From: Haloferax gibbonsii ATCC 33959
GTDB taxonomy: Archaea > Halobacteriota > Halobacteria > Halobacteriales > Haloferacaceae
NCBI RefSeq assembly: GCF_000336775.1
Contig: NZ_AOLJ01000028.1
Coordinates: 1 to 64,000 of the forward strand
Length of the DNA: 64,000 nucleotides
Direction of reading: 5' to 3'
Position numbers and translations under genes: made by a program. Below the pieces are notes generated by a model that made no database searches, was not told the DNA's origin, and saw only the letters and a program-made list of their open reading frames with translations. Within the stretch, counting starts at the first letter, position 1, and each line of letters begins with the position of its first letter. Below, piece after piece: positions 46,767 to 63,473 of the stretch.

Positions 46767-47600
46767 TTACGCGTCGGCGGACCGGCGGCCGACGAGCCAA
46801 TCGCCGAACGCGACGCTGCCGACTCCGAGGACGACGCCGGCGACGACGTCGGTCCCCCAGTGAATCCCGAGGTACATCGTCGAGAAGGCGACCGCGGCGG
46901 CGAGCACCGACGCGACGACGGCCCACGCGGGGTACGTCTCCCGCGTCCGAATCGCAATCGCCGCCGCCGAGACCGAAAGCGACGTGTGAAGCGACGGGAA
47001 CACGTTCGTGTTCACGTTCACCTCGCCGGTGAGTATCTGCGTCTGCGGGTAGGTGCTGTACAGAAGCGACTCGACCTGTCCCGGCAGGAGGTTACGGGGA
47101 CCGTAGGAGATAAACAGGACGTAGCAGGTCAGGCCGATGGCGTAGTTCGCCGCGTACGTGACCGCGGTGAGTTTCAGCGGTCGCTCGTCGGCCGCCGCGA
47201 AGTACGCGACGAACGGGAACGTGAGCAGGAAGACGTACCCCGAGAGGTACACGGTCGAGAGGACGGCGGTGAGCGCCGGCGTCGCGAGCGACTGAACGTG
47301 CTGGACGAAGTTCCCCTCGATAGCGTAGATGACGCCGGTGGCGTTCCAGCCCAGCGCCCACGACACTTCCGGGCCGACGCCGCGGGCGACCTTGTTCACG
47401 AGGAGAACGACCGCCAGCAGACCGAGGTACGGCGCGGCCTCGCGCAAGCGGTCGCTCCCCGACCCGCACGCCGCCGCGAGACGCGACGGGCCGACGATAG
47501 CGAGCGTTGCGAGCGCCAACGCGACAGCCGCGCCGCCGAGCACGCGGGCGAGAACCGCGACGAGCGGTGAGAAGCCTATCGAGGACTGAGCGGAAATCAT
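46767..47600 (-). CDS. PAP2-superfamily membrane phosphatase / phosphotransferase
   Basis: A 277-residue protein with about seven membrane helices. The PAP2 active-site motifs are in the last third: PSLHTSLSVSAAAIA (catalytic His) and STMYLGIHWGTDVVAGVVLG (nucleophilic His and Asp). An upstream YGPRNLLPGQ resembles the Ipt1/Aur1 subgroup. It probably dephosphorylates polyprenyl pyrophosphate, recycling the glycan carrier, or transfers a lipid-linked head group. It overlaps the upstream binding-protein gene by ATGA. Confidence 0.85.
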   Translation of the reverse strand: MISAQSSIGFSPLVAVLARVLGGAAVALALATLAIVGPSRLAAACGSGSDRLREAAPYLGLLAVVLLVNKVARGVGPEVSWALGWNATGVIYAIEGNFVQHVQSLATPALTAVLSTVYLSGYVFLLTFPFVAYFAAADERPLKLTAVTYAANYAIGLTCYVLFISYGPRNLLPGQVESLLYSTYPQTQILTGEVNVNTNVFPSLHTSLSVSAAAIAIRTRETYPAWAVVASVLAAAVAFSTMYLGIHWGTDVVAGVVLGVGSVAFGDWLVGRRSADA

Positions 47601-49495
47601 TCTTGAATGAGGAGGTCGCCGTCGCCCGAGTAGGCGTATCCCGCGTCTTCGAACACCGACCGCGCTCGCTCCGCGTCGAGCGTGCCGGTCCCCGAGTCGC
47701 CGACGAACTCGAGTTCGGACACGGCCTCGTCCCACGCATCACCCGCTGGGACGTACGTCGTCGCGACCAGCGGTGACGACGCCGGTTCGGTCTCGCCGTC
47801 GAACACCGAATCCACGAGGAACTCGCGGTCGACGAGCCGGGCGACCGCCCGTCGGAACCGGGGGTTCATGAACGGCGGCCGTCGGTGGTTGTAGCCGACG
47901 TGATAGCACCACTCGGGCCGGCTGGTGCGAACGGAGATTCCGGGTTCGTCCGCCGCGGCCGCCCTCGAATCGGCCGACAGCGAGTTCGCCGTCGCGTCGA
48001 CGGCGTCGGTCGCGAGCAGTTCGACGGCGGCGCCGTCGGAGGGAACGACGTCGAACCGCAGCGAGTCGAACGAGAAGCCGCCGTCGAACCGGGACAGTCG
48101 GCCGTCGAGCGCGTCGTCGGCGAGGAAGTGGTCCTCGAACGGTTCCATCGAAACCGACTCTCTGGCCGTCGTTCCCGTCACGCGGAGCGGTCCGCTTCCG
48201 ACCGGGTCGAGGTTGTTCCGGACGAGCGCCTCGGTGACGTGGCCGCCGTCGAGCCACGAGGCGCTCGTCGGGCGGGCGAACGGCTCCCAGACGTGTTCGG
48301 GGAGCACCGGAATCGTCAGCGCGCGCGCCGCGACCGGTTCGCTCACGTCGCCGAACCGAATCGTCACCTCGCGGTCGGACGCGGCGTCGACCGACTCGAC
48401 GAGCGAGGCGCGGCCGCGGTATCGCGGCGACGGGACCGGCTGGTCGAGCGAGCCGAGTGCCGTGTCGGAGATGAACCGGAAGGTGAACGCCACGTCCGCC
48501 GCCGTTATCGGCTCGCCGTCGTGCCACGCGAGGTCGTCGCGGAGCCGGACCGAAAGCGTCGTATCGTCCCCGTCGGCCCACTCCCACGACGCGGCCATCC
48601 ACGGCCGCATCCGGTCGTAGACCGGACGACCCAACGAGTCGTAGACGAGGTCGAGGAGCGTCCCGTCCGACCGAAACGGCGTCGAAAGCGGGTTGAGGTT
48701 CTCCGTCGGACGCGAGTCGCCTATCGTCATTCGGAGTTCGTTTTCGGGGGTCGGTTCGTCGGTCGTCGTCGCGGGCGTCGAGGTCGGGGCGGGCGTCGAG
48801 GTCGTCGCTGACGTCGACTGCTCGGTCGGGGCGGGCGTCGCCGACGGCGTGACCGTCGACTCGGTCCGCGAGGCGGTCGCCGTGGTGGTGACAGCCCTCG
48901 CACCGAGGTATCCCGTGAGGCTGTGGATTCCAACGCCGTCGGGCCAGTCGACCCGCACCGGCCGCGTCGCCTGAGCCGGGGCGGGGGCCGCGACGGGCGT
49001 GAACGGTTGGGCCTCCACGACGCGCCGTTGAATCTCCGCGAGCGTCGCGGCGCGGACGGAACCGGTCTCGGTCCGCTGTCGCTCCAGAAGCGAGTCCAAC
49101 GACAGGTCGCCGTATCCGAACGGGTTTTGCCAGCCGCGGCCCGGACCGTAGCGAGAGTGGAGCAGGGGACGGAGGAAGTCCGGGTCGCGCCGGAGCAGCA
49201 GCCGGGAGACGTAGATATCGAAGTCGTGGTTCGAGAGCACGTCGCGGAGGAGTTCCTCCCGGCTCATCGGGACCACGGTCGCCGCGACGCCGACCGTCTG
49301 GAGGCGGGTGGCGAGGTAGCGGGCGAGCCTCGTCGCCGTCGCGTCGGTGTCCGCGGGAACGGTCTTGATAGAGAGCGAAAGCGGCGTCCGCTCGTCGCGC
49401 GAGACCGTCGATTCGAGCTGCCGGACGCACCCGCTGGTCAGGCCCGCGCCTGCGAGCGCCAAAACCGACCGTCTAGAGAGCCGTGTTGATGACAT
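47597..49495 (-). CDS. Circularly permuted family 5 (oligopeptide-type) solute-binding lipoprotein
   Basis: A 632-residue protein with a Tat-like signal (LSRRSVLALAG) and lipobox TSGC (Cys23). Residues 37-200 correspond to the C-terminal lobe of family 5 binding proteins: LSIKTVPADTDATATRLARYL, FDIYVSRLLLRRDPDFLRPLLHSRYG, NPFGYGDLSLDSLLERQR, QRRVVEAQPFTPV. A Thr/Ser/Pro linker (about 202-252) follows. Residues 255-632 are the family's N-terminal part: TENLNPLSTPF, LLDLVYDSLGRPVYD, WHDGEPITAADVAFTFRF, ending DAERARSVFEDAGYAYSGDGDLL. In ordinary members that last sequence immediately precedes the segment found here at residue 37. No permease or ATPase genes adjoin it. Confidence 0.85.
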   Translation of the reverse strand: MSSTRLSRRSVLALAGAGLTSGCVRQLESTVSRDERTPLSLSIKTVPADTDATATRLARYLATRLQTVGVAATVVPMSREELLRDVLSNHDFDIYVSRLLLRRDPDFLRPLLHSRYGPGRGWQNPFGYGDLSLDSLLERQRTETGSVRAATLAEIQRRVVEAQPFTPVAAPAPAQATRPVRVDWPDGVGIHSLTGYLGARAVTTTATASRTESTVTPSATPAPTEQSTSATTSTPAPTSTPATTTDEPTPENELRMTIGDSRPTENLNPLSTPFRSDGTLLDLVYDSLGRPVYDRMRPWMAASWEWADGDDTTLSVRLRDDLAWHDGEPITAADVAFTFRFISDTALGSLDQPVPSPRYRGRASLVESVDAASDREVTIRFGDVSEPVAARALTIPVLPEHVWEPFARPTSASWLDGGHVTEALVRNNLDPVGSGPLRVTGTTARESVSMEPFEDHFLADDALDGRLSRFDGGFSFDSLRFDVVPSDGAAVELLATDAVDATANSLSADSRAAAADEPGISVRTSRPEWCYHVGYNHRRPPFMNPRFRRAVARLVDREFLVDSVFDGETEPASSPLVATTYVPAGDAWDEAVSELEFVGDSGTGTLDAERARSVFEDAGYAYSGDGDLLIQE

Positions 49496-49558: not shown

Positions 49559-51028
49559 CTAGATACCCAAGAAAAGCGGCCACGCGAACAGGAGCAGCCA
49601 CAGGCAGACGGCCGCCGAAAGCGCCGCTCGGCGGGGTTCCGACGACTCGAAGTGACGGCGGCCGGCGACGGCGAGAACCCCGAGGGCAACGAGCACGGCG
49701 AACCGGTGGAGGACGACTTCGACCGGGACGACGGCGACTCCTATCATCGCGAAGTCGGCGACGAGACCCGTCCCGTAGCCGACGAACGCGGTGCCGAACC
49801 ACAGTTCCGACGAGTACCCCCGCGGCAGGCGAGCGGCGAGGACGGCCGGCGCGAGCGCGAACACCGGAAAGAGCAGTCCGGCGACGACCTTCGGGTGGTT
49901 CGGAACGACGCGTTCGAGCCCGAGTGCGGCCGAGCGGACCAAAACCGGGAGCGCGACGAGTGCGACCGCGAGCGCGACGACGCGCTGGAATCGGTCGTCG
50001 GCGAGCCGCGACCAGCGGAGGCGCTCGACGAGCGCGCCGAGTTCGTCTCGGCGAGTGGCGAGCGCGGCGAGTCCACCGACGGCGACGAAGCCGACGGCGA
50101 GCATGGACAGGACGGTTCCGACGCCCGCCGGCCCCGTCTGCGGCGTATCGAGTACCGAGGGGGTGTCGTCGCGTTCGGAGCCGGCGCGCTCTGCGGCCTC
50201 GTCTCTGCCTGTCGCCGACCCGACGCTCGCGGGGCGACGCGCGTCGTCTCTCGGGAGCGTCGAGAGTTGCGGCGGCCCGAGTTCGACGACCGACACCCAG
50301 CCGTCGGCGTCGATGATGCCGCCGTTGGCGAACCGCTCGCGACGAACGTCGACGACGGTCGGGCGGCGCATCAGGTCGCGTTCGACGGCGTGTTGCGGGC
50401 CGGCGAGGCTCGTCACCGTGTGGCGAAGCCGGAACCAGTCCCAGTAGTCTCGGTGGGCCTGAATCGCCGTCCACGAGTCGTCCGGCGTCCCGCCGCCGTA
50501 CAGTCGGAGGTGAGTTCGGCTCCCGAAGTACGTCCCGTCGTGGAGCTGCATCGACTCCGCAATCCACAGCCCGCCCGAGTCCGCGGTGTCGACGAAGGTA
50601 AACCGGTCCGCGCCCGTGGCCGACCCCCACGGGGAGGCCGGCTCGTCGGTGGGGGCCTGTTCGGTGGACGCCTGTTGCCACGACTCGTTCGTCTCGTCCC
50701 ACGTCGCGTCGCGCGAGTACAGGAGCAGCGAGCGGACCCGCGCGGGGTTCCCCTCGACGACGACGTTCACCGGGAGCGTCAGCGCGTCAAACGACCGGTC
50801 TCGGCTGGTGAACGGCCAGAGCCGGTCCCCCCGGTCGCCGACCGGGACCAGCCGAACGTCGTCGGCAGATTTCGGACCGTTCGGTGCCGACTCGGCCGTC
50901 GCGGCCGTCGAAGCGCCCCCGTTCGCGCCGAAATCGACGACGCTCGCGGTCGGCACCGCTGTCGTCGCCAACAGGAGGACGACACCGAGGACGACGAGGC
51001 TCTCGGCCGCCCCGAGACGAGACGCCAT
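49559..51028 (-). CDS. Large membrane protein with LssY-like extracellular domain
   Basis: A 489-residue protein. An N-terminal signal helix is followed by an extracellular domain (about 55-235) with LPVNVVVEGNPARVRSLLLYS, FVDTADSGGLWIAESMQLHDGTYFGSRTHLRLYGGG and HRDYWDWFRLRHTVTSLAG. It recalls the LssY C-terminal domain. Then come one helix (about 305-325) and five to six C-terminal helices. LssY proteins often pair with PAP2 phosphatases, and one lies two genes downstream here. The domain call is from memory and tentative. Confidence 0.55.
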   Translation of the reverse strand: MASRLGAAESLVVLGVVLLLATTAVPTASVVDFGANGGASTAATAESAPNGPKSADDVRLVPVGDRGDRLWPFTSRDRSFDALTLPVNVVVEGNPARVRSLLLYSRDATWDETNESWQQASTEQAPTDEPASPWGSATGADRFTFVDTADSGGLWIAESMQLHDGTYFGSRTHLRLYGGGTPDDSWTAIQAHRDYWDWFRLRHTVTSLAGPQHAVERDLMRRPTVVDVRRERFANGGIIDADGWVSVVELGPPQLSTLPRDDARRPASVGSATGRDEAAERAGSERDDTPSVLDTPQTGPAGVGTVLSMLAVGFVAVGGLAALATRRDELGALVERLRWSRLADDRFQRVVALAVALVALPVLVRSAALGLERVVPNHPKVVAGLLFPVFALAPAVLAARLPRGYSSELWFGTAFVGYGTGLVADFAMIGVAVVPVEVVLHRFAVLVALGVLAVAGRRHFESSEPRRAALSAAVCLWLLLFAWPLFLGI

Positions 51029-51167: not shown

Positions 51168-52520
51168 ATGGTCGAGCGGACGCATCTGCGAGTCGCCGCG
51201 GCAGTCGCCCTCCTCGTCTGCGCGGGTATCGTCGGGGCCGCGTACCTGAGCCGACCGACCTCGGCGGTGACGGACGCGACCGGCGAGAGCGCACGGGTCG
51301 CGCCCGCGAACGGGACGACGGTCATCGCGACCGACTCGAACACGTGGCTCGGACGAGAGAGCGACGGCCCGCGAGCGAACGCCGAACTCGTCGCGTTCGG
51401 TGCCGACGGAGAGCGGCAATACTACGACGATACCCACACCCGCTACTGGGACGTCGACCCCGTCGAGGGGACGAACGCGACGGTCGAGTACCTCTACGCG
51501 GACCACCTGACACCCGAAGAGTGCGGCGGCGAGAGCGCGTGCACGCGAAACGGCATCGAGCGCGTGAACCTCACCACCGGGAGCGTCGAGGGGATTTACA
51601 GTCGCGTGACCGCCGGGAAGCACTCGACGCGGTGGCACGACGGCGACAGACTGAGCGATTCGACGTACGTCGTCGCCGACATCGCCGCTGACCGCGTGTT
51701 CGTCGTGAACACGACGACGGACATCGTCGAGTGGTCGTGGGACGCGCAGGCGGCGTTCGACCCCGCGACGACCGGCGGGCCGTACCCGTCCGATTGGACC
51801 CACCTCAACGACGTCGAGGTGCTCGAAAGCGGGCTCATTCAGGTCAGCCTCCGCAACCACGACAGAGTGGTGTACCTCGACCGCGAGACCGGCCTCGTCG
51901 AGAACCGGACGCTCGGAAACGGGTCTCACGGCGTCCTCTACGAGCAACACAACCCCGATTACATCGAGAACCCGGACGGCGACGACGCCGTCCTCGTCGC
52001 CGATTCGGAGAACAACCGCCTCGTCGAATACCGCGACACCGGTGGCGAGTGGGTTCGCTCGTGGGTCTGGCAGGACAAGCGACTCCAGTGGGCGCGAGAC
52101 GCCGACAGACTCCCGAACGGCCACACGCTCGTGACGGACTCGAACGGCAACCGCGTGTTCGAACTGGACGAGACCGGCGAGGTCGTCTGGAGCGTCCCCG
52201 TCGCGTTCCCCTACGAGGCCGAGCGCCTCGGGACCGGCGACGAGAGCGCTGGCGGTCCGCCGGCACACGAACTCGGCCTCCGGAATCGGACGGCCGGCGG
52301 CTCGACGGTCGGAGACGGCGGCCCGTCTCAGTCGTCGGTACTCCCCGGACCGGTCGTGAACGCCGTCTACTACGTCCTCCCGCGGTGGATGGGCGTCACA
52401 GAGCTGCTGGTGTCCTGTCTCGGGCTCGCCGTCGGAGCCCTGTGGGCCATCGCCGAACTGCGGTGGCTCCCGTACCGCGTCTCGCTCACGAACCCCGTCT
52501 CGCTTCGAAAGCGGAGGTGA
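51168..52520 (+). CDS. Arylsulfotransferase-like beta-propeller membrane protein
   Basis: A 450-residue protein with an N-terminal signal anchor. The six-bladed propeller of the ASST-like family (PF14269 type) shows DWTHLNDVEVLESGLIQVSLRNHDRVVYLDRETG, HGVLYEQHNPDYI, VLVADSENNRLVEY and RLPNGHTLVTDSNGNRVFELDETGEVVWS. Two hydrophobic segments near the C-terminus (about 400-437) anchor it. Conserved His residues of the family are visible (WTHLND, SHGV). It may sulfate a surface glycan, or only bind. It is followed 10 nt later by a GT-C gene, forming an operon. Confidence 0.8.
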   Translation: MVERTHLRVAAAVALLVCAGIVGAAYLSRPTSAVTDATGESARVAPANGTTVIATDSNTWLGRESDGPRANAELVAFGADGERQYYDDTHTRYWDVDPVEGTNATVEYLYADHLTPEECGGESACTRNGIERVNLTTGSVEGIYSRVTAGKHSTRWHDGDRLSDSTYVVADIAADRVFVVNTTTDIVEWSWDAQAAFDPATTGGPYPSDWTHLNDVEVLESGLIQVSLRNHDRVVYLDRETGLVENRTLGNGSHGVLYEQHNPDYIENPDGDDAVLVADSENNRLVEYRDTGGEWVRSWVWQDKRLQWARDADRLPNGHTLVTDSNGNRVFELDETGEVVWSVPVAFPYEAERLGTGDESAGGPPAHELGLRNRTAGGSTVGDGGPSQSSVLPGPVVNAVYYVLPRWMGVTELLVSCLGLAVGALWAIAELRWLPYRVSLTNPVSLRKRR

Positions 52521-52530
52521 GAGCTACTCC

Positions 52531-54234
52531 ATGAACTCAACGACCGACGACACGGCGAACGGCCTCGACCCCGCGGCACCGGGCCGCGCGAACGCGTTCA
52601 CCGACGGCGTTCCCGGCCTCGGCCGCGAGAGCCACGCGTGGTTCGCCCTCGCCCTCGTCGCCGGACTCGTCGTCTCGGTGACGTACGTGGCGACCCACGA
52701 CTACCCGGCCTACGGGTCCGGGCTGTACCTCGAAATCGCCGAGCAGATTCGGACCGGCGGCTACGCGCTCCCGACTTCGATTCCGTACTACGACGGCGGG
52801 ATTCCGTTCGCGTACCCGCCCCTTCAGTTCTACGCGGTCGCGCTCCTGACCGACCTCGGCGTCTCGGGAACGACGCTCAGCCTCGTCCTCCCGGCCGTGG
52901 TGACGGTACTCTACCTCGTTCCGTACTACGGAATCGCGCTCGAACTCCTCCCCACGCGGCGGCAGGCGGGGGTCGCGACGGCGATTCTCGCGGTCGCTCC
53001 ACCGGTCCTGCAGTGGCACCTCTCGGCCGGCGGCATCGTCCGCGCGTCCGCGTTCTTTCTGTCTCTCTGCGGGGTTTACGTCGGGGCGAGGCTGTTCCGC
53101 CGCGGCACCCGGCGGCCGCTGTGGGTCGGCTCCGGCGTCATCTGCTTCGGACTGACCGTCCTCTCGCACCCGACGTACACCGTGTTTTTCGGAGTCAGTT
53201 GGCTCGTCCTCTACGCGATGCTCGACCGAACGCTGCCCGGGCTCCTCAGCGGTGCCGCGGTGGCTCTCGGGGGACTCGTCCTCGCCGCGCCGTGGTGGGC
53301 CAACGTCGTCACCACTCACGGCGTCGGGGCCTTCGTGGGTGCGGCGGGCAGTCACAGCGGTATCGCCGGCGGCGTCGGTCGGCTCCTCGACCAGTTCGTC
53401 TACCCGCTGGACCCGACCGTCGTCACGGTGTTCTTCCTCGCGAGCTTCGCCGCCGCGGGCGTGCTCGTCTCTCGGAGGACGTTCACGCTGCCGCTTTGGC
53501 TCTTCGTCTGCGCGTACGTCATCGGGAAGGAGCGCTTCCAGTTCGTCGCCGGCGCGATGATGATTTCGACGGTGCTTTTCGGCGTCGTCGTGCCGCGGCT
53601 GACCGACGGCGTTCGCGGGTCGCTCGACAACCGGCAGTTGATGGCCTCGTCGCTGGTCGTGGTCCTCGTCGTCGGGACGAGCCTCGGCGGGTTCTACGCC
53701 GCGAGCGGCCTCGGCGCGGCACACCACGGCAGTCCGAGTCTCCCCTCGTTCATGGACGACGACGACCGAGAGGCCATGGAGTGGGCGAGAAACGACACCG
53801 ACGCGAACGCGTCGTTCGTCGTGCTCTCGGACGCGGCCGAGTGGTTCCCGCACCACGCGAAGCGGACGATGCTCGTGGGCCCGTGGGGGGTCGAATGGAA
53901 GAGCCCCGACAGGTACTACGACCAGATTTCGGCGTTCAAAACGGCGAGCACCTGCGAGAACGCGACCTGCGTGACCGCGTCGATGGAGTCCGTCGACGCC
54001 TCGCCCGACTACCTGTACGTCCCCCGCGGGACGTACACCGTCCGGGGGCTCGAAGAAGACGGGACCGAGCGACTTCGCACCTCGCTCGCGGACAGTTCCC
54101 GGTATCGACGAGTCTACGGAAACGACGGGGTCGTGGTGTACGAGGTCGTGTCGGGCGATACCGACGCCTCGACGACCGAACCCGCCGTTTTGTCGGACGC
54201 TAAGCGACGCCGACCGGGATTATCCGGCCGATAG
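52531..54234 (+). CDS. GT-C-type membrane glycosyltransferase
   Basis: A 567-residue protein with about 11 membrane helices in the first 410 residues and an extracellular C-terminal domain of about 155 residues. The first loop after helix 1 contains ATHDYPAYGSGLYLEIAEQIRTGG, with acidic residues placed as in GT39/GT83 enzymes, and GGIPFAYPPLQFY. It probably uses a polyprenyl-phosphate sugar on the outer face. It is cotranscribed with the arylsulfotransferase-like gene. Confidence 0.75.
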   Translation: MNSTTDDTANGLDPAAPGRANAFTDGVPGLGRESHAWFALALVAGLVVSVTYVATHDYPAYGSGLYLEIAEQIRTGGYALPTSIPYYDGGIPFAYPPLQFYAVALLTDLGVSGTTLSLVLPAVVTVLYLVPYYGIALELLPTRRQAGVATAILAVAPPVLQWHLSAGGIVRASAFFLSLCGVYVGARLFRRGTRRPLWVGSGVICFGLTVLSHPTYTVFFGVSWLVLYAMLDRTLPGLLSGAAVALGGLVLAAPWWANVVTTHGVGAFVGAAGSHSGIAGGVGRLLDQFVYPLDPTVVTVFFLASFAAAGVLVSRRTFTLPLWLFVCAYVIGKERFQFVAGAMMISTVLFGVVVPRLTDGVRGSLDNRQLMASSLVVVLVVGTSLGGFYAASGLGAAHHGSPSLPSFMDDDDREAMEWARNDTDANASFVVLSDAAEWFPHHAKRTMLVGPWGVEWKSPDRYYDQISAFKTASTCENATCVTASMESVDASPDYLYVPRGTYTVRGLEEDGTERLRTSLADSSRYRRVYGNDGVVVYEVVSGDTDASTTEPAVLSDAKRRRPGLSGR

Positions 54235-54239
54235 TAAAC
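54219..54239 (+). promoter_or_regulatory. CTTA-class promoter (ATTA variant) of the phosphohexomutase-like gene
   Basis: ATTA (54219-54222), 7 nt, then GATAGTAAAC. The box ends 26 nt before the ATG at 54263. It lies inside the 3' end of the preceding GT-C gene. Confidence 0.68.
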
Positions 54240-54262
54240 ACCCCTCGGGCGGACAGTGGGGT

Positions 54263-55597
54263 ATGTTCGCACCATCACGAATCCGCGGTTCGTACGGGAC
54301 GCAGGTGACCGCGAAACTCGCCCTCAAAGCCGGTCGCGCCCTCGCCGGAACGGGCGACGAAATCGTCGTGGGCCACGACCCGAGCGACAGCGCTCGCCTC
54401 CTCGCTGACGCGGTCGCGACCGGGGTCTGCGAGTGCGGCGGCACCGTCCACCGACTCGGGCCGGTGGCGAGCCCGACCGTCTCTCACGGGGTGCGGCGAC
54501 TCGGCGGCGACGCCGGCGTGGCGGTGACGACCGTCAGCGACCCCGCCGAGGACACCGGGCTGAAACTGTTCGACGACGACGGCTCGCGCCTCTCGTGGGA
54601 GCGACAGAGCAGGGTCGTCCGCCGGGTCAACGGCTCGTCGGCCGAGGTCGCCCCGTGGGACGAAATCGGCGAGGAACGTCGCTGGGACGACGCCGCGGCA
54701 CATCACCTCGACCACCTCTGCGAGGGGCGAACTTCGGTCTCCGACACGCGCGTCGTGGTCGACGTCGGCGAGCGGGACGACGACATCATGGCCGACGCGC
54801 TCGACCGACTCGGCTGCGACGTCGAGCGCCTCGACGGAACCGCGGACGACTCGTTTCCGCGCCGTCGGGTCGCCTCGGGCGACGACGCGTGCGGGACGCT
54901 CCGCCGAGCGGTCGCGGCCTCGGACGCCGATATCGGTCTGGCTCACGACGCCGACGCGGACCGCCTCGTGGCCGTCGACGAGACCGGCGAGGTCGTCGGC
55001 GGAGACGCGCTCCTCGCGCTGTTCGCGCGAGAGACGGTCCGCGATGCGGACGGGGACGCCCGCGTCGCCGTGCCGCTGGAGGCGAGCCGTCGCATCGGAG
55101 AGGTCGTCTCCGACGCGGGGGGAAGCATCGTCCGGGTCGAGATGGACGGGATTCCGGGGTCCGGACCGGCGGCGGACGCGGACGTCGTCTTCGGCGGCGA
55201 GCCGAGCGGCGTCTACCAGTGGCCGGCCGAGTCGCCCTGTCCGGACGCGACGCTCTCGGCGATTCGCCTCGCGCGGCTCGTCGACGAGGGGGCGGCGCTC
55301 TCCGAACAGGCGGGCGACGTGGCGGCGTACCCGCTGTTTTTCGACTCGTTCGCGGTCGACAACTGCGCCCGCGAGATGACGCGGCTCGCGACGGAGTGTC
55401 AGGCGCGCTTCGACGACGTTCGGACCGACGACGGCATCTTCGTCGACCGCGGCGACGCGTGGTTCGTCGTCAGGGCGAGCCGAACCGAGCGCGTCCTTCG
55501 CGTGACCGTCGAAGGGACGTCCCGGAACAGCGCGAAGCGGCTGTTCGACGCGGTTCGGGAGCTCGTGTCCGACGAGAAAGCGACGCTCACAGCCTGA
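54263..55597 (+). CDS. Phosphohexomutase-family pseudoenzyme (GlmM paralog)
   Basis: A 444-residue protein, colinear with the GlmM at 3.3 kb over its whole length. FGTSGVRG has become FAPSRIRG (2-9). The catalytic ASHNP loop is TVSDP (90-94), so the phosphorylated Ser aligns with Val91, with a Ser one position later. The metal loop DGDADR is DADADR. The sugar loop GGEPSG is kept. The phosphate loop RASGT is RASRT. Standard mutase activity looks improbable, while substrate binding may persist. It could act as a regulator or sensor of hexosamine phosphate. It has its own leaderless CTTA-class promoter, so it is an expressed gene and not decaying DNA. Confidence 0.85.
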   Translation: MFAPSRIRGSYGTQVTAKLALKAGRALAGTGDEIVVGHDPSDSARLLADAVATGVCECGGTVHRLGPVASPTVSHGVRRLGGDAGVAVTTVSDPAEDTGLKLFDDDGSRLSWERQSRVVRRVNGSSAEVAPWDEIGEERRWDDAAAHHLDHLCEGRTSVSDTRVVVDVGERDDDIMADALDRLGCDVERLDGTADDSFPRRRVASGDDACGTLRRAVAASDADIGLAHDADADRLVAVDETGEVVGGDALLALFARETVRDADGDARVAVPLEASRRIGEVVSDAGGSIVRVEMDGIPGSGPAADADVVFGGEPSGVYQWPAESPCPDATLSAIRLARLVDEGAALSEQAGDVAAYPLFFDSFAVDNCAREMTRLATECQARFDDVRTDDGIFVDRGDAWFVVRASRTERVLRVTVEGTSRNSAKRLFDAVRELVSDEKATLTA

Positions 55598-57721: not shown

Positions 57722-59875
57722 TCAGTCCGAGTCGGCCGGACTGGTCTCCGCGCGCTTCGACGGCGTGATGAACGAGTCACGCTGGCTCATCTCCTCCTCC
57801 GAGAGGTGACAGGAGATGTAGTGGTCCGCGCCCCCGACCGATTCGAGCTCCGGGAGCTCCTGCTCGCAGACGTCGCCGATTTTCTTCGGACAGCGCGTCT
57901 GGAACGGACAGCCCGACGGTGGGTTGATGGGACTCGGAACGCTCCCCTCAAGCAAGATGCGGTCCGTCTCGCGGTCCGGGTTCGCGTGGGGGACCGCCGA
58001 CAGGAGGCTCTCCGTGTAGGGGTGGAACGGCGGCGAGAACACCTGCTCGATGCTCCCGAACTCCGCTATCTTCCCGAGGTACATCACGGCCACGCGGTCG
58101 CAGATGTGCCGGATGACGCCGATGTTGTGCGAGATGAACAGGAACGAGATGTTCTCGTCTTCCTGAATCTCGTTCAGGAGGTTGAGAATCTGCGCCTGCA
58201 CGCTCACGTCGAGCGCCGAGACGGGCTCGTCGCAGACGATGAGCTTCGGTTCGACGGCGAGCGCGTGCGCGATGGCGACGCGCTGTTGTTGTCCCCCGGA
58301 GAACTCGTGGGGGTACTTGCTCGCGGCGGCCCGCGACAGGCCGACGCGTTCGAGCAGGTCGCCAACTCGCTCGCGCTTTTCCTCGCCGGTGGCGATGCCG
58401 TGTTTCTCCATCGCGCGCCCGACGATTTGGCCCACGGTCTTCCGCGGGTTGAGCGAACTCTGAGGGTCCTGGAATATCATCTGCATCTCGCGGCGCAGAC
58501 TCCGAATCTCCGAGGAGCCGAGCTCGTGGAGCGGCTGTCCCTCGAAGTACACCTCGCCGTCGGTCGGTTCGAGGAGCCGGAGCGCGGTGCGAGCGACCGT
58601 GGACTTCCCGCAGCCGGACTCGCCGACGAGCCCGACGGTCTCGCCGGGATAGACGTCGAAGCTCACGTCGTCGACGGCCTTGACGTGCCGCCGTTCGACC
58701 GTCGGCAGGCCGCCGCCCTCCCACGAGAGGTGGACGTTGCCGAAGACGCCCTCGCCGGCGTTGAAGTACTTCTTCAGGTTCCGCACCTCGAACAGCGGCT
58801 CGCCGCTGCGGTCGATGTCGCGGCGGCCGGCCCCGGATTCGGGGACCGTGCTCTCCGAGAGGTCGAGGTCGGCGGCGTGGAGACACGCCGCGCGCGAGGA
58901 GTCGTCGCCGACGGAGTCGAGCGACGGGTCGCCGCCGGTCCGACACGCCTCGGTGGCGTGGGGACACCGCGGCGCGAAGTTACACCCGCTCGGGAGGTTC
59001 CCGAGGTCGGGCATCGCGCCGTCGAGCGTCGGCAGTTCGTCGTAGTCGGTGTCGACCTCCGGGATTGAGTCGATGAGCGCGCGGGTGTAGGGGTGTCGCG
59101 GGCGGTCGAACAGGTCGCCGAGTTCGGCCGTCTCCACGAGGTTCCCGGCGTACATCACGCCGACGTGGTCGCACGTCTGGGCGACGACGCCGAGGTTGTG
59201 GGTGATCATCAGCACGGCCGTCCCCTCGCGCTCCTGCATCTCGTTGAGCAGGTCGAGAATCTTCGCCTGCGTCGTCACGTCGAGCGCGGTGGTCGGCTCG
59301 TCGGCGATGATGAGGTCCGGCTCGCAGGAGAAGCCGATGGCGACGAGGACGCGCTGGCGCATCCCCCCGGAGAACTCGTGGGGGTAGTCGTCGATGCGTT
59401 CTTCCGCGTCGGGGATGCCGACGTCGTCCATCGATTCGATGGCGAGCTGGCGTGCCTCTGACTTGGAGACGTCCTGATGGCGGCGAATCGTCTCCGTGAT
59501 TTGCTCGCCGACGGTCATCACCGGGTTGAGCGACGACATCGGGTCCTGCGGAATCATCGCGATGCGGTTGCCGCGGATGTCGCGCATCTCGGCTTCCGTC
59601 TTCTGCAGGAGGTCTTCCCCGTTGAAGACGACCTGCCCGCCGGTGATTTCGCCGGGCGAGTCGATGAGGCGCATGAGCGACCGCGCCGTCACGGACTTGC
59701 CCGCGCCCGACTCGCCGACGAGACCCATGGTCTCGCCGCGGTCGAGCGAGAACGACACCTCGTTGGAGGCGACGATGGGGCCGGCGTCGGTGCGGAACTC
59801 GGTTCTGAGTCCGCGCACGTCGAGCAGCGGGCCGTCGTCGGCCTCGCGGTCGGTCGCGGTGGTTGGTGCGCTCAT
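57722..59875 (-). CDS. Fused dipeptide/oligopeptide ABC transporter ATPase (DppD-DppF type)
   Basis: A 717-residue protein with two complete ABC domains. The first has Walker [18 protein letters not shown], signature [12 protein letters not shown] and Walker B DLIIADEP. The second has [29 protein letters not shown] and KLIVCDEP. Each is followed by the Cys-containing oligopeptide-transporter C-terminal motif ([14 protein letters not shown] and [15 protein letters not shown]). The two subunits, separate in most bacteria, are fused as is common in haloarchaea. It is last in the operon and overlaps the permease by ATGA. Confidence 0.95.
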
Positions 59876-60771
59876 TCTATCGCCTCCACTTTGGGGTCGA
59901 GCACGTCACGCAGTCCGTCGCCGAGCATGTTGAACCCGACGACGGCGATGCCGATAGCCAACGCGGGGAACAGCAACATCCACGGCGCGGTCTCCATGAA
60001 GCCGCGACCGGTGTTAATCATCAGCCCCCACGACGGCCGCGGCGGCTGCGCGCCGAGGCCGAGGAACGACAGGCTCGCCTCCGCGAGGATGGCGAACGAG
60101 ACGTTCAGCGACCCCTGAACCAGCATGGGAGCCATGCAGTTCGGGAACACCTCGCTGAAGACGATGCGCGAGTCGCTCTCGCCGCGGGCGACGGCGGCCT
60201 CGACGTACGCCTCGTTGCGCTCGGCTAACGCCGCGCTCCGCGAGACGCGGGCGATGTACGGCGTGTAGACGAACGCCAAGGCGATGACGACGTTACTCAA
60301 CTCCGGGCCGAGGACGACGAGCAGGGTGAGCGCGAGCAACACCGGTGGGAACGCCATCGCGGCGTCCATGACGCGCATCAGTATCTCGTCGGTCAGGCCG
60401 CCGGCGTAACCGGCGACGACGCCGACGACCGCTCCGACCGCGAGCGCGCCGGAGATGGCTCCGAAGCCGACGTACAGCGAGATTCGGCTCCCCATGACGA
60501 CGCGGCTGAAGATGTCGCGGCCGAGGTCGTCGGTGCCGAACGGGTGTTCGACCGACGGGGCCTGCGAGCGGTCTTCGATGTTCGTCGCGTCGATGGGGTA
60601 CGGCGCGATAATCGGCGCGAAGATGGCGACGAGCACGAGCAGCACCACGATGGAGAAGCCGAGCATCGCCTTCGTGTTGCTGCGGAACTTCCGAACGAAC
60701 CGGGCGATGCGGTCGCGCTGTGACTGCGTGATGGTGAAGCGACCGCGGTCGGTCTCCTGTTCGGTCGCCAT
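59872..60771 (-). CDS. Dipeptide-type ABC transporter permease (DppC-like)
   Basis: A 299-residue permease with six helices. The conserved opening is [32 protein letters not shown], followed by [28 protein letters not shown]. The EAA loop is [28 protein letters not shown]. It forms the channel with the DppB-like subunit. It abuts the upstream gene by one base and the ATPase by ATGA. Confidence 0.93.
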
Positions 60772-61730
60772 CAGTCGTCACCTCCGTAGCGGATGCGCGG
60801 GTCGAAGTACGCGTACAGCAGGTCTGCGGCGAAGTTCGAGAACATGTAGATGAGTGCGACCACGAGGATGCACCCCTGAATCAGGGGGATATCGCGGCTC
60901 TGAATCGCGGTCAGCGTCAGCCGACCGATGCCGGGCCAGAAGAACACCTCTTCGAGCACGACGACCCCGCCGAACGCGTAGCTGAACTGGAACGCGATGA
61001 CCGTGATGACGGGGATGATTGCGTTCTTGAGCGCGTGTCTGAGGACGATGACCCGTTGGCTCATCCCCTTCGCACGCGCGAGATTGATGTACTCCTCGCT
61101 GAGAACCTCCAGCATCGACGACCGGGTCATCCGCATGATGTACGCGGTGAGCGCGAAGCCCATCGCCCCCGCGGGGAGGACGAGTCGCGTGAGCGACCCG
61201 ACGAGGTCCTCGCTCGGGGAGACGTACCCCCCGGTCGGAAAGAGGTTCAGCCAGACGGCGAACACCAGGATGAACACCAGTCCCCACAGGAATATCGGCA
61301 TCGAGATGCCGACGAAGGCGAACATCGAGGCGCTCACGTCGGGCGCTTCGTTCTGGTTGACGGCGGCGTAGACGCCGAGCGGGACCGACAGCACGACGGC
61401 GACGAGCGTCGCGGCGACGGCGAGCATCATCGACCGGGGCAGGCGCTCGGCGATGAGTTGCGCCACGGGCTCGCCGAATCGGAGCGATTCGCCCATGTTC
61501 CCCTGGAGGAGCCCGACGACCCAGTCGATGTACTGCACGTACAGCGGGCGGTTGAGTCCCAGTTGGGTTTGGAGCGCTTCGAGCGATTGTTCGGTCGCGT
61601 TGGGGCCCAAGATGAGCAGGGCCACGTCACCGGGCAGGATGTTGGTGACGGCGAAGGCGATGAGCGTGACGAAGAACAGCGTCACCGCCATGAACCCGAC
61701 GCGCCGAAAGACGTAGTTGTACATCGACAT
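60771..61730 (-). CDS. Dipeptide-type ABC transporter permease (DppB-like)
   Basis: A 319-residue permease with six helices. It opens YVFRRVGFMAVTLFFVTLIAFAVTNILPGDVA and has LGLNRPLYVQYIDWVVGLLQGNMGESL. The EAA-type loop is INLARAKGMSQRVIVLRHALKNAIIPV. It is 15 nt downstream of the binding-protein gene. An alternative ATG is two codons in. Confidence 0.93.
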   Translation of the reverse strand: MSMYNYVFRRVGFMAVTLFFVTLIAFAVTNILPGDVALLILGPNATEQSLEALQTQLGLNRPLYVQYIDWVVGLLQGNMGESLRFGEPVAQLIAERLPRSMMLAVAATLVAVVLSVPLGVYAAVNQNEAPDVSASMFAFVGISMPIFLWGLVFILVFAVWLNLFPTGGYVSPSEDLVGSLTRLVLPAGAMGFALTAYIMRMTRSSMLEVLSEEYINLARAKGMSQRVIVLRHALKNAIIPVITVIAFQFSYAFGGVVVLEEVFFWPGIGRLTLTAIQSRDIPLIQGCILVVALIYMFSNFAADLLYAYFDPRIRYGGDD

Positions 61731-61745
61731 TGTGTGGAATCTCTG

Positions 61746-63419
61746 TTAGCGGTCGAGCCAGTTGTCGCCGAACTGCAGCGTCGACCCGTCGGGCGCGCCG
61801 ATGTCGCCCTTGTACTGCGAGGCGGCTCCGTAGAGGCTCGGCTGCCACCACAGGAAGAGGTGGCCGGCGCGGTCCTCGTGGAGAATCTCCGTCGCCTGGT
61901 GGTAGAGCTCGGCGCGCTCCTGTTCGTCGTAGATGGTGCGCGCCTCCTCGACGAGCGCGTTGTAGTCCTCGTTCACCCAGTTGGTGAAGAAGAACGCCCC
62001 GTTGGGGTGCAGGAACTTGTAGAACGACACGTCGGGGTACCAGAGCGCGAGGTAGGAGCTCGTCGTCGCCTGGAAGTCGCGGTTGGAGTAGACGTCCGAG
62101 AGCCACGTGCTCCACGTGATCTGCTGGATTTCGAGGTTGATGCCGACCTCGGCGGCGTCGGCTGCGATGACCTCCGCGGCCTGCACCTGCGTCGGGTAGG
62201 ACTGCGGAATCTTGAACGTCGCCGTGAAGCCGTCGGACATGCCGGCGGCGTCGAGGTGCTCCTGTGCCTTGTCGAGGTCACGCGGGCGCGGTTCGATGTC
62301 CGGGTTGACCCACGGGCTGCCGGGCGTCGCCGGGGACGCCGTGGTCTGACCGGTGCCGTAGAGGGCCGCCTCGGCGACCTTCTCCTTGTCGATGGTGTAG
62401 TCGAGCGCGAGGCGGGCGTCCTTGTTGTCGAACGGAGCCACGTCGCAGTTCAGGCCGAGGTAGACGAGCGATTTCGGGAACTGCTTTTCGAACCGAACGT
62501 CGGGGGCCTGCTCGACGCGGGAGACGTCCTTCGGCGCGATGCCGTTGATGAAGTCGTACTCGCCGGCGAGGAACGACTGGAGGCGGACGCTCGGGTCCGG
62601 CACCTCGCTCTTGACGATGGTGTCGATGAACGGGCCGTCCTCGTCGGACGCGCCCCAGTAGTCCTCGTTGCGCGACATCGTGAACGAGGTCTCGATTTCG
62701 CGGCTCTCGAACACGTACGGGCCGGTCCCGATGGGTTCTTCGACCATGTCCTTCTCGGCGTTCTCGGCGGGCATGACCGACAGTTCCGCCGTCGCCATCT
62801 TCGCGAGGAACGGCGCGAAGGGTTCGGTGAGTTGGACTTCGAAGGTGTAGTCGTCGGGGGCGCGAAGCTCCTCGACGTAGTCGAAGAAGCCGGTGGCGAG
62901 GTAGTCGCCGTTCTGGACGCGCTCGTAGCTCGCCAGCACGTCCTCGGAGGTCATCTCCTTGCCGTTGTGGAAGGTGACGCCCTCCCGGAGGTTGAACGTC
63001 AGGACCGTGTTGTCGTCGGACTGCTCCATCGACTCCGCGAGGTGCGGCTGGATGGAGTAGTCGTCCTGCAGCGCGACGACTTCCTCGTAGATGTTCTCCA
63101 GAACGCGCTTGGAGGCCGCCGAGGTGTCGATGTGCGGGTCGAGCCCCTGCACCGGCACCGCGCCGCCCCACTGGAGCGTGCCGCCCTGCTTCCCGCCGCT
63201 CGCGGCGGTCGTGTCGGTGCTCTCCGTGTCGTCGCTTCCGCCCGAGGAACCCGAATCTTCGGTCGTGCTGTCGTCCGAACCGCCGCCCGTACACCCGGCG
63301 AGCGCCACCGCGCCGGTCGTCGCCGCCGCCCCGAGGAAGGTACGGCGGTCGAAACGACTGCGACGCGTGCCGTCGCCGGTGCTGTCGGAGGAGTCGCTCC
63401 CCTTGCCATTCTCTTGCAT
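61746..63419 (-). CDS. Family 5 solute-binding lipoprotein of the Dpp-type transporter
   Basis: A 557-residue protein with a Tat signal (FDRRTFLGAAATTGAVALAGC, lipobox Cys) and a Gly/Ser/Asp-rich linker. The canonical order of the family follows: VQGLDPHIDTSAASKRVLENIYEEV, FNLREGVTFHNGKEMTSEDVLASYERV, LAGEYDFINGIAPKDVSRV, then the C-lobe FKIPQSYPTQVQAAEVIAADAAEVGINLEIQ. The substrate is a peptide or similar. It contrasts with the permuted homologue at 47.6 kb. The ATG at 63419 is favoured by a TATA box at -27; the frame continues to 63473 without need. Confidence 0.92.
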   Translation of the reverse strand: MQENGKGSDSSDSTGDGTRRSRFDRRTFLGAAATTGAVALAGCTGGGSDDSTTEDSGSSGGSDDTESTDTTAASGGKQGGTLQWGGAVPVQGLDPHIDTSAASKRVLENIYEEVVALQDDYSIQPHLAESMEQSDDNTVLTFNLREGVTFHNGKEMTSEDVLASYERVQNGDYLATGFFDYVEELRAPDDYTFEVQLTEPFAPFLAKMATAELSVMPAENAEKDMVEEPIGTGPYVFESREIETSFTMSRNEDYWGASDEDGPFIDTIVKSEVPDPSVRLQSFLAGEYDFINGIAPKDVSRVEQAPDVRFEKQFPKSLVYLGLNCDVAPFDNKDARLALDYTIDKEKVAEAALYGTGQTTASPATPGSPWVNPDIEPRPRDLDKAQEHLDAAGMSDGFTATFKIPQSYPTQVQAAEVIAADAAEVGINLEIQQITWSTWLSDVYSNRDFQATTSSYLALWYPDVSFYKFLHPNGAFFFTNWVNEDYNALVEEARTIYDEQERAELYHQATEILHEDRAGHLFLWWQPSLYGAASQYKGDIGAPDGSTLQFGDNWLDR

Positions 63420-63446
63420 ACAGTCGCTCAAATCCGTTACTGTGTG

Positions 63447-63457
63447 ATAAAAATTGT
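63447..63457 (-). promoter_or_regulatory. TATA box of the Dpp-type transporter operon
   Basis: The minus strand reads AATTTTTATCA, ending about 28 nt before the ATG at 63419. It is a conventional box without CTTA at the expected distance. Confidence 0.6.
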
Positions 63458-63473
63458 GGTTATGTGAGTACAA

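Follow-up and report, generated by a model that had tools for sequence, protein, structure and literature searches.

What does a binding lipoprotein of the OppA/DppA type do when the two parts of its chain come in the wrong order and no transporter is encoded beside it? The question is raised by a gene in the stretch of 64,000 nucleotides of Haloferax gibbonsii ATCC 33959 DNA that was analysed here as a whole (the window). The window matches the H. gibbonsii plasmid pHGLR2, at 99% over the gene of this solute-binding protein (SBP). The first-pass annotation had described the product as a circularly permuted family 5 lipoprotein without a transporter, linked to a PAP2 phosphatase, and had taken it for a surface protein repurposed for sensing, or for holding a glycan or peptide.

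The open reading frame is real and its coordinates are exact (Table 1). The Pfam family SBP_bac_5 (PF00496, E = 1.4e-46) aligns residues 296-626 of the SBP with profile positions 2-284 of 368; the canonical receptor at 61746-63473 of the same window matches positions 2-362, with its parts in the normal order, as had been said of it. A profile for residues 38-203, built from 48 homologues, gave significant matches to family 5 binding proteins only, and always toward their C-terminal ends, that is, in their C-terminal thirds (AppA, 1xoc, 370-495, E = 3e-8; 4qfk, 375-513; LpqW, 2grv, 410-482). Positions 230-587 of the full-length profile align with the N-terminal parts of solved family 5 proteins. 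In an AlphaFold2 model made with 51 homologues (mean pLDDT 82.5), residues 248-632 superpose on roughly the first 345 chain positions of family 5 proteins such as NikZ and AppA (Z about 20-22), and the N-terminal part, when folded separately (pLDDT 78), matched the final ~160 residues of these proteins (e.g., 337-498; Z about 9). LpqW was among both the fold and the profile matches. Since residues 40-203 correspond to the canonical C-terminus and residues 250-632 to the first ~345 residues, the halves stand in swapped order, and the SBP is confirmed as a circularly permuted family 5 (OppA/DppA/NikA) binding protein. The fold is complete: both lobes, all the main secondary structure elements and the typical motifs are present, just as in OppA, DppA, AppA and NikA. 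What sets the SBP apart from these proteins are its swapped parts, the anchor on the canonical C-terminal part, the lack of a permease and the PAP2 partner.

The second segment ends, as had been proposed, at the very point where the first should continue; the breakpoint, AGYAYSGDGDLLIQE, is common to the permuted proteins, and in those inspected the chain ends directly after AGYxxxxGxL. The Thr/Ser/Pro linker between the two parts is also there, but it is not an essential feature, since few family members besides those of Haloferax have a long one and in many the parts are joined by about 8 residues. If a tandem duplication had left a trace, the linker might have kept a second lipobox Cys; none of 65 homologues has one, and the idea was rejected. 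Upstream RNA structure gave no signal. In the family alignment, G22 and C23 of the lipobox are invariant and R8 and R9 are conserved at over 90%, which identifies the protein as a lipoprotein. The GWQNPFGY motif is specific to the family, with residues 121-126 invariant in 51 sequences.

Table 1. Coordinates of the SBP, its parts, its neighbours in the window and the tandem arrays of related loci.
Feature	Position	Strand	Basis or remark
Circularly permuted family 5 solute-binding lipoprotein (SBP), 632 aa	47597-49495	-	ORF, Pfam, profiles, AlphaFold
Signal with twin Arg (R8 R9), lipobox ending at Cys23	49427-49495	-	Family alignment
Tether from lipid-modified Cys23 to first strand, 17 residues, Arg-rich, amphipathic in the family	49379-49429	-	Tether comparison
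Residues 40-203, canonical C-terminal third, placed first	48887-49378	-	Profile and structure
Motif GWQNPFGY, residues 121-128, directly after the DPD acid site	49112-49135	-	Family alignment
Thr/Ser/Pro joining linker, residues 204-252	48740-48886	-	Linker comparison
Residues 253-632, canonical N-terminal two thirds, placed second, ending at the common breakpoint	47600-48739	-	Pfam, profile, structure
PAP2_3 membrane protein, 277 aa, start codon overlapping the SBP stop codon	46767-47600	-	PAP2_3 profile; invariant GPRN, FPSLH, TxxLGIHWxxD
489-aa protein, about 6 predicted TM segments, no Pfam or NCBIfam match	49559-51028	-	Upstream of SBP, same strand
Arylsulfotransferase-like gene	51168-52520	+	Divergent, recurrent neighbour, weaker association
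567-aa multi-TM protein	52531-54234	+	Divergent, recurrent neighbour, weaker association
Tandem SBP-PAP2 arrays	L132:5151-10576; also L029, L032, L035, L039, L055, L058, L061, L062

The permutation is conserved among haloarchaea. Bacterial and archaeal genomes, when scanned for the SBP, yielded 67 loci at 32-97% identity, nearly all of full length (L069 is cut by a contig end and L072 has four in-frame stops) and all in haloarchaea or their relatives, with homologues spanning at least 25 haloarchaeal genera. When the order was tested with HMMs, one for each half of canonical Haloferax receptors, the C part preceded the N part in every member tested of this PAP2-linked family. That an assembly or annotation error fused two gene pieces can be dismissed as practically negligible, since the same order is found in 67 independent loci over this range of identity and genera, in complete genomes and in two closed H. 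gibbonsii plasmids. The copy with the in-frame stops, in Halolamina pelagica CDK2 (L072:5971-8529), is frameshifted or decayed. Outside Halobacteria, a weak match (G335) covers the N-lobe part only and is probably in canonical order. The SBP-PAP2 pair is missing from several other Haloferax genomes and is thus accessory in the genus.

Is the permutation the sign of repurposing that it had been taken for? Its wider distribution argues otherwise. The same genome encodes a second permuted receptor (P0002; L092:7489-9420, minus strand, contig C6), followed by DppB-like, DppC-like and fused two-domain DppD/F-like ATPase genes in a complete operon; of 242 genomes of the class, about 40 have a close relative of this receptor that matches over the full length at an identity of at least 43%. 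Permutation is also seen in all of twenty more distant haloarchaeal relatives (L134-L153), chosen because their matches were long though weak, and 19 of them adjoin permeases and ATPases. Among bacteria, where the spread is known from plasmid records only, six permuted receptors of Alphaproteobacteria (L123, L124, L125, L126, L154 and L159), two each from Nitratireductor and Roseomonas and one each from Ketogulonicigenium and Neorhizobium, adjoin permease genes, most of them in full importer operons and often beside M28 peptidase or hydantoinase genes. These receptors of Opp-type operons share with the SBP both the permutation and the breakpoint; unlike it, they have permeases and ATPases alongside and, in haloarchaea, long acidic tethers. 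Because permuted relatives sit in complete importer operons, permutation alone is no sign of repurposing, and the idea that it caused or marked the loss of the transporter was rejected. Two observations from this wider group may be added: the L126 receptor is divided between two annotated CDS, and a permuted receptor at L148:5659-7506 (plus strand) lacks both a permease gene and a PAP2 gene in flanks of about 5 kb and is possibly a third, independent orphan.

In a tree computed with the canonical order restored, the PAP2-linked family groups as a single clade (SH-aLRT 100), the transporter-linked permuted proteins group as a second (99), and the tree does not settle how the two are placed. A single clade of all permuted proteins was not rejected (p-AU 0.67) and had a slightly higher likelihood. 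Together with the common breakpoint, this favours, but does not prove, one old permutation behind all of the permuted receptors.

The lack of a transporter holds well beyond the window. There is no permease or ATPase gene adjacent to the SBP in the window itself, and a tblastn search with four permease queries in flanks of up to 6 kb found no permease at any of the 67 loci; the same queries succeed in 19 of the 20 distant permuted haloarchaeal loci, in L092 and in the bacterial loci checked. The link to PAP2 is likewise found across haloarchaea, with a PAP2 gene beside 88 of the 89 SBP family genes, mostly with its start no more than 40 bp downstream. In the window, the ATG of the PAP2 gene overlaps the SBP stop codon by 4 nt (47597-47600), which makes co-transcription of the two genes likely. 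The exceptions are one copy (L042) without a nearby PAP2 gene and some Natrinema loci, where two SBP genes go with one PAP2 gene. Among 145 genomes, queried for the SBP with the homologue from L030, 92 have both genes, none has the SBP alone, one (G128) has PAP2 alone and 52 have neither (Fisher p 6e-39, a value that is not corrected for the relatedness of the genomes). The pairs also seem to travel together: Natrialbaceae have tandem SBP-PAP2-SBP-PAP2 arrays, duplicated as cognate units, and in all 36 comparisons over nine double loci the SBP and the PAP2 are each nearest to the copy at the same position, so the cognate pairing has been kept. Distances among SBPs and among PAP2 proteins are correlated (r 0.91 over 79 pairs), in part through their common species history.

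A further feature of the PAP2-linked SBPs is the tether between the lipobox Cys and the first strand. It measures 16-17 residues in each of the 78 unique sequences, is rich in Arg, shows hydrophobic spacing and has a mean net charge of +0.7; the corresponding values are a median of 49 residues and a net charge of -7.7 in the transporter-linked permuted relatives of haloarchaea, and 32 residues and -5 in the canonical paralogues. Of the repurposing proposed by the first-pass annotation, then, the part that ran through the permutation is not supported, and the move away from import is supported by the missing permease, the PAP2 gene beside nearly every copy, the co-occurrence and the fixed, Arg-rich tether.

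The partner itself is a PAP2_3 protein (PF14378 is matched by 20 of 20 partner proteins) in which the catalytic residues H205, H247 and D251 are invariant; the three invariant motifs listed in Table 1 suggest that it is probably an active enzyme. In comparisons with solved structures, its active-site region matches PgpB phosphatases (E = 3e-6) more strongly than AUR1 (9vj3, E = 0.011), and the label "Aur1-like" used here refers to the PAP2_3 family and the motif pattern. Phosphatase and transferase activity would both be compatible with the sequence, which cannot separate them.

There are other neighbours that recur, each at a minority of loci: the 489-aa membrane protein, the arylsulfotransferase-like gene, the 567-aa multi-TM protein and glmM/glmS. 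The 489-aa protein is found near about a third of the SBP family loci and is a possible operon mate of the SBP. On the plus strand of the window, the arylsulfotransferase-like, 567-aa multi-TM and phosphoglucosamine-mutase-like genes stand in a row (51168-55597), an arrangement that is conserved with glmM/glmS in Haladaptatus; this region is possibly a cluster for the sulfation or assembly of surface glycans. The recurrence of such neighbours hints at surface glycans.

We would put at roughly 0.5 the probability that the SBP serves as a membrane-docked, ligand-binding subunit of the Aur1-like PAP2 enzyme, working like the mycobacterial LpqW. By the order of its parts, the common breakpoint and the operon context, the SBP appears to descend from a permuted lineage in which most members serve ABC importers; the PAP2-linked branch has apparently lost its importer and is in an obligate pairing, observed as genetic linkage, with a PAP2_3 integral membrane enzyme. 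The lipid and the short, fixed, Arg-rich tether would hold the SBP, once exported by the Tat pathway, against the outside of the membrane, where it would sit on the PAP2 enzyme. A ligand would be bound between the lobes, and the opening and closing of the SBP could present a substrate to PAP2, or else gate the enzyme as it acts, as a phosphatase or phosphotransferase, on a lipid-linked substrate. Its role would be like that of LpqW in steering glycolipid synthesis, and not that of an import receptor. In a more specific version, offered as a tentative proposal, the SBP would be a receptor subunit dedicated to an archaeal Aur1-like PAP2 enzyme and gated by its ligand. The two genes would form a surface module that works without ATP, is passed on as a cassette among haloarchaea and answers an external ligand by remodelling lipid-linked head groups.

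Like the SBP, LpqW is an orphan lipoprotein of family 5 with ties to a pathway of membrane lipids or glycolipids (PMC10928101, PMC12421883), and it is known to steer glycolipid synthesis in mycobacteria (PMC10928101, PMC12421883, PMC3229680). Unlike the SBP, it has the canonical order, with its residues 410-482 corresponding to the N-terminal part of the SBP, and it regulates PIM/LAM synthesis; a PAP2 neighbour is not described in the three LpqW papers cited here. A second precedent is the inositol phosphorylceramide synthase Aur1-Kei1, whose PAP2-type catalytic subunit requires the regulatory subunit Kei1 (PMC10287731). The proposed SBP-PAP2 complex would resemble it in combining a PAP2-type enzyme, here with an Aur1-like active-site region, with a second subunit. 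Kei1 is not known to have a binding-protein fold.

Three other functions have to be weighed. The SBP could be an orphan importer receptor that passes its ligand to an ABC permease encoded elsewhere, with PAP2 as a metabolic neighbour, for example one that frees the ligand from a phosphorylated or lipid-linked form. Such import is possible, given that the SBP has retained the whole fold with a DPD acid site like the pocket of importer receptors; permuted relatives do work with importers, haloarchaea have many spare Opp transporters, and in Pseudomonas aeruginosa several receptors are served by one DppBCDF permease (PMC4206461). However, the canonical Opp operon that lies 10 kb away in the window (57722-63473) already has its own canonical receptor, and with no permease at any of the 67 loci, a near-perfect co-occurrence with PAP2 and a short, fixed tether unlike that of importer receptors, we regard this function as unlikely.

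We also find it improbable that the SBP is a surface sensor, a role close to the view of the first-pass annotation. It would then bind an external peptide or glycan and report on the condition of the envelope, and PAP2 would be its effector or an unrelated, co-expressed enzyme. An orphan receptor with conserved surface anchoring and recurrent surface-glycan neighbours would fit such a role. Those neighbours, however, are present at only about a third of the loci, PAP2 alone among the neighbours checked recurs at nearly every locus, and a recurring signalling gene was not found in the annotated loci examined. Lastly, the SBP might be a degenerate receptor that has lost ligand binding and merely stabilises or localises PAP2 as a scaffold. 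The fixed tether and the pairing with PAP2 fit a scaffold equally well, and LpqW-type proteins may work without a transported ligand, but the motifs GWQNPFGY, DPD and WHDGxPxTAxDV in the region of the cleft are strongly conserved, which suggests that the binding site has been maintained and makes a mere scaffold very doubtful.

The natural circular permutation of the OppA/DppA family seems to be undescribed in the open-access literature, where we found no account of permuted family 5 receptors; subscription journals lay outside this search, and an earlier description is possible. No solved permuted chain was among the PDB matches listed for the transporter-linked receptors P0002 and L123, all of which are in canonical order, and no NCBIfam model for the permuted group scored above its cut-off. 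The group is nevertheless sizeable in haloarchaea and Alphaproteobacteria, where annotation pipelines label its members as plain substrate-binding proteins and Pfam matches only part of the chain. Permuted receptors offer a natural test of which features count when a two-lobed receptor docks to a permease. The SBP-PAP2 pair, for its part, occurs in roughly two thirds of the sampled haloarchaeal genomes. It provides a tangible system of two genes in which the receptor fold has apparently shifted from import to the control of a membrane lipid enzyme.
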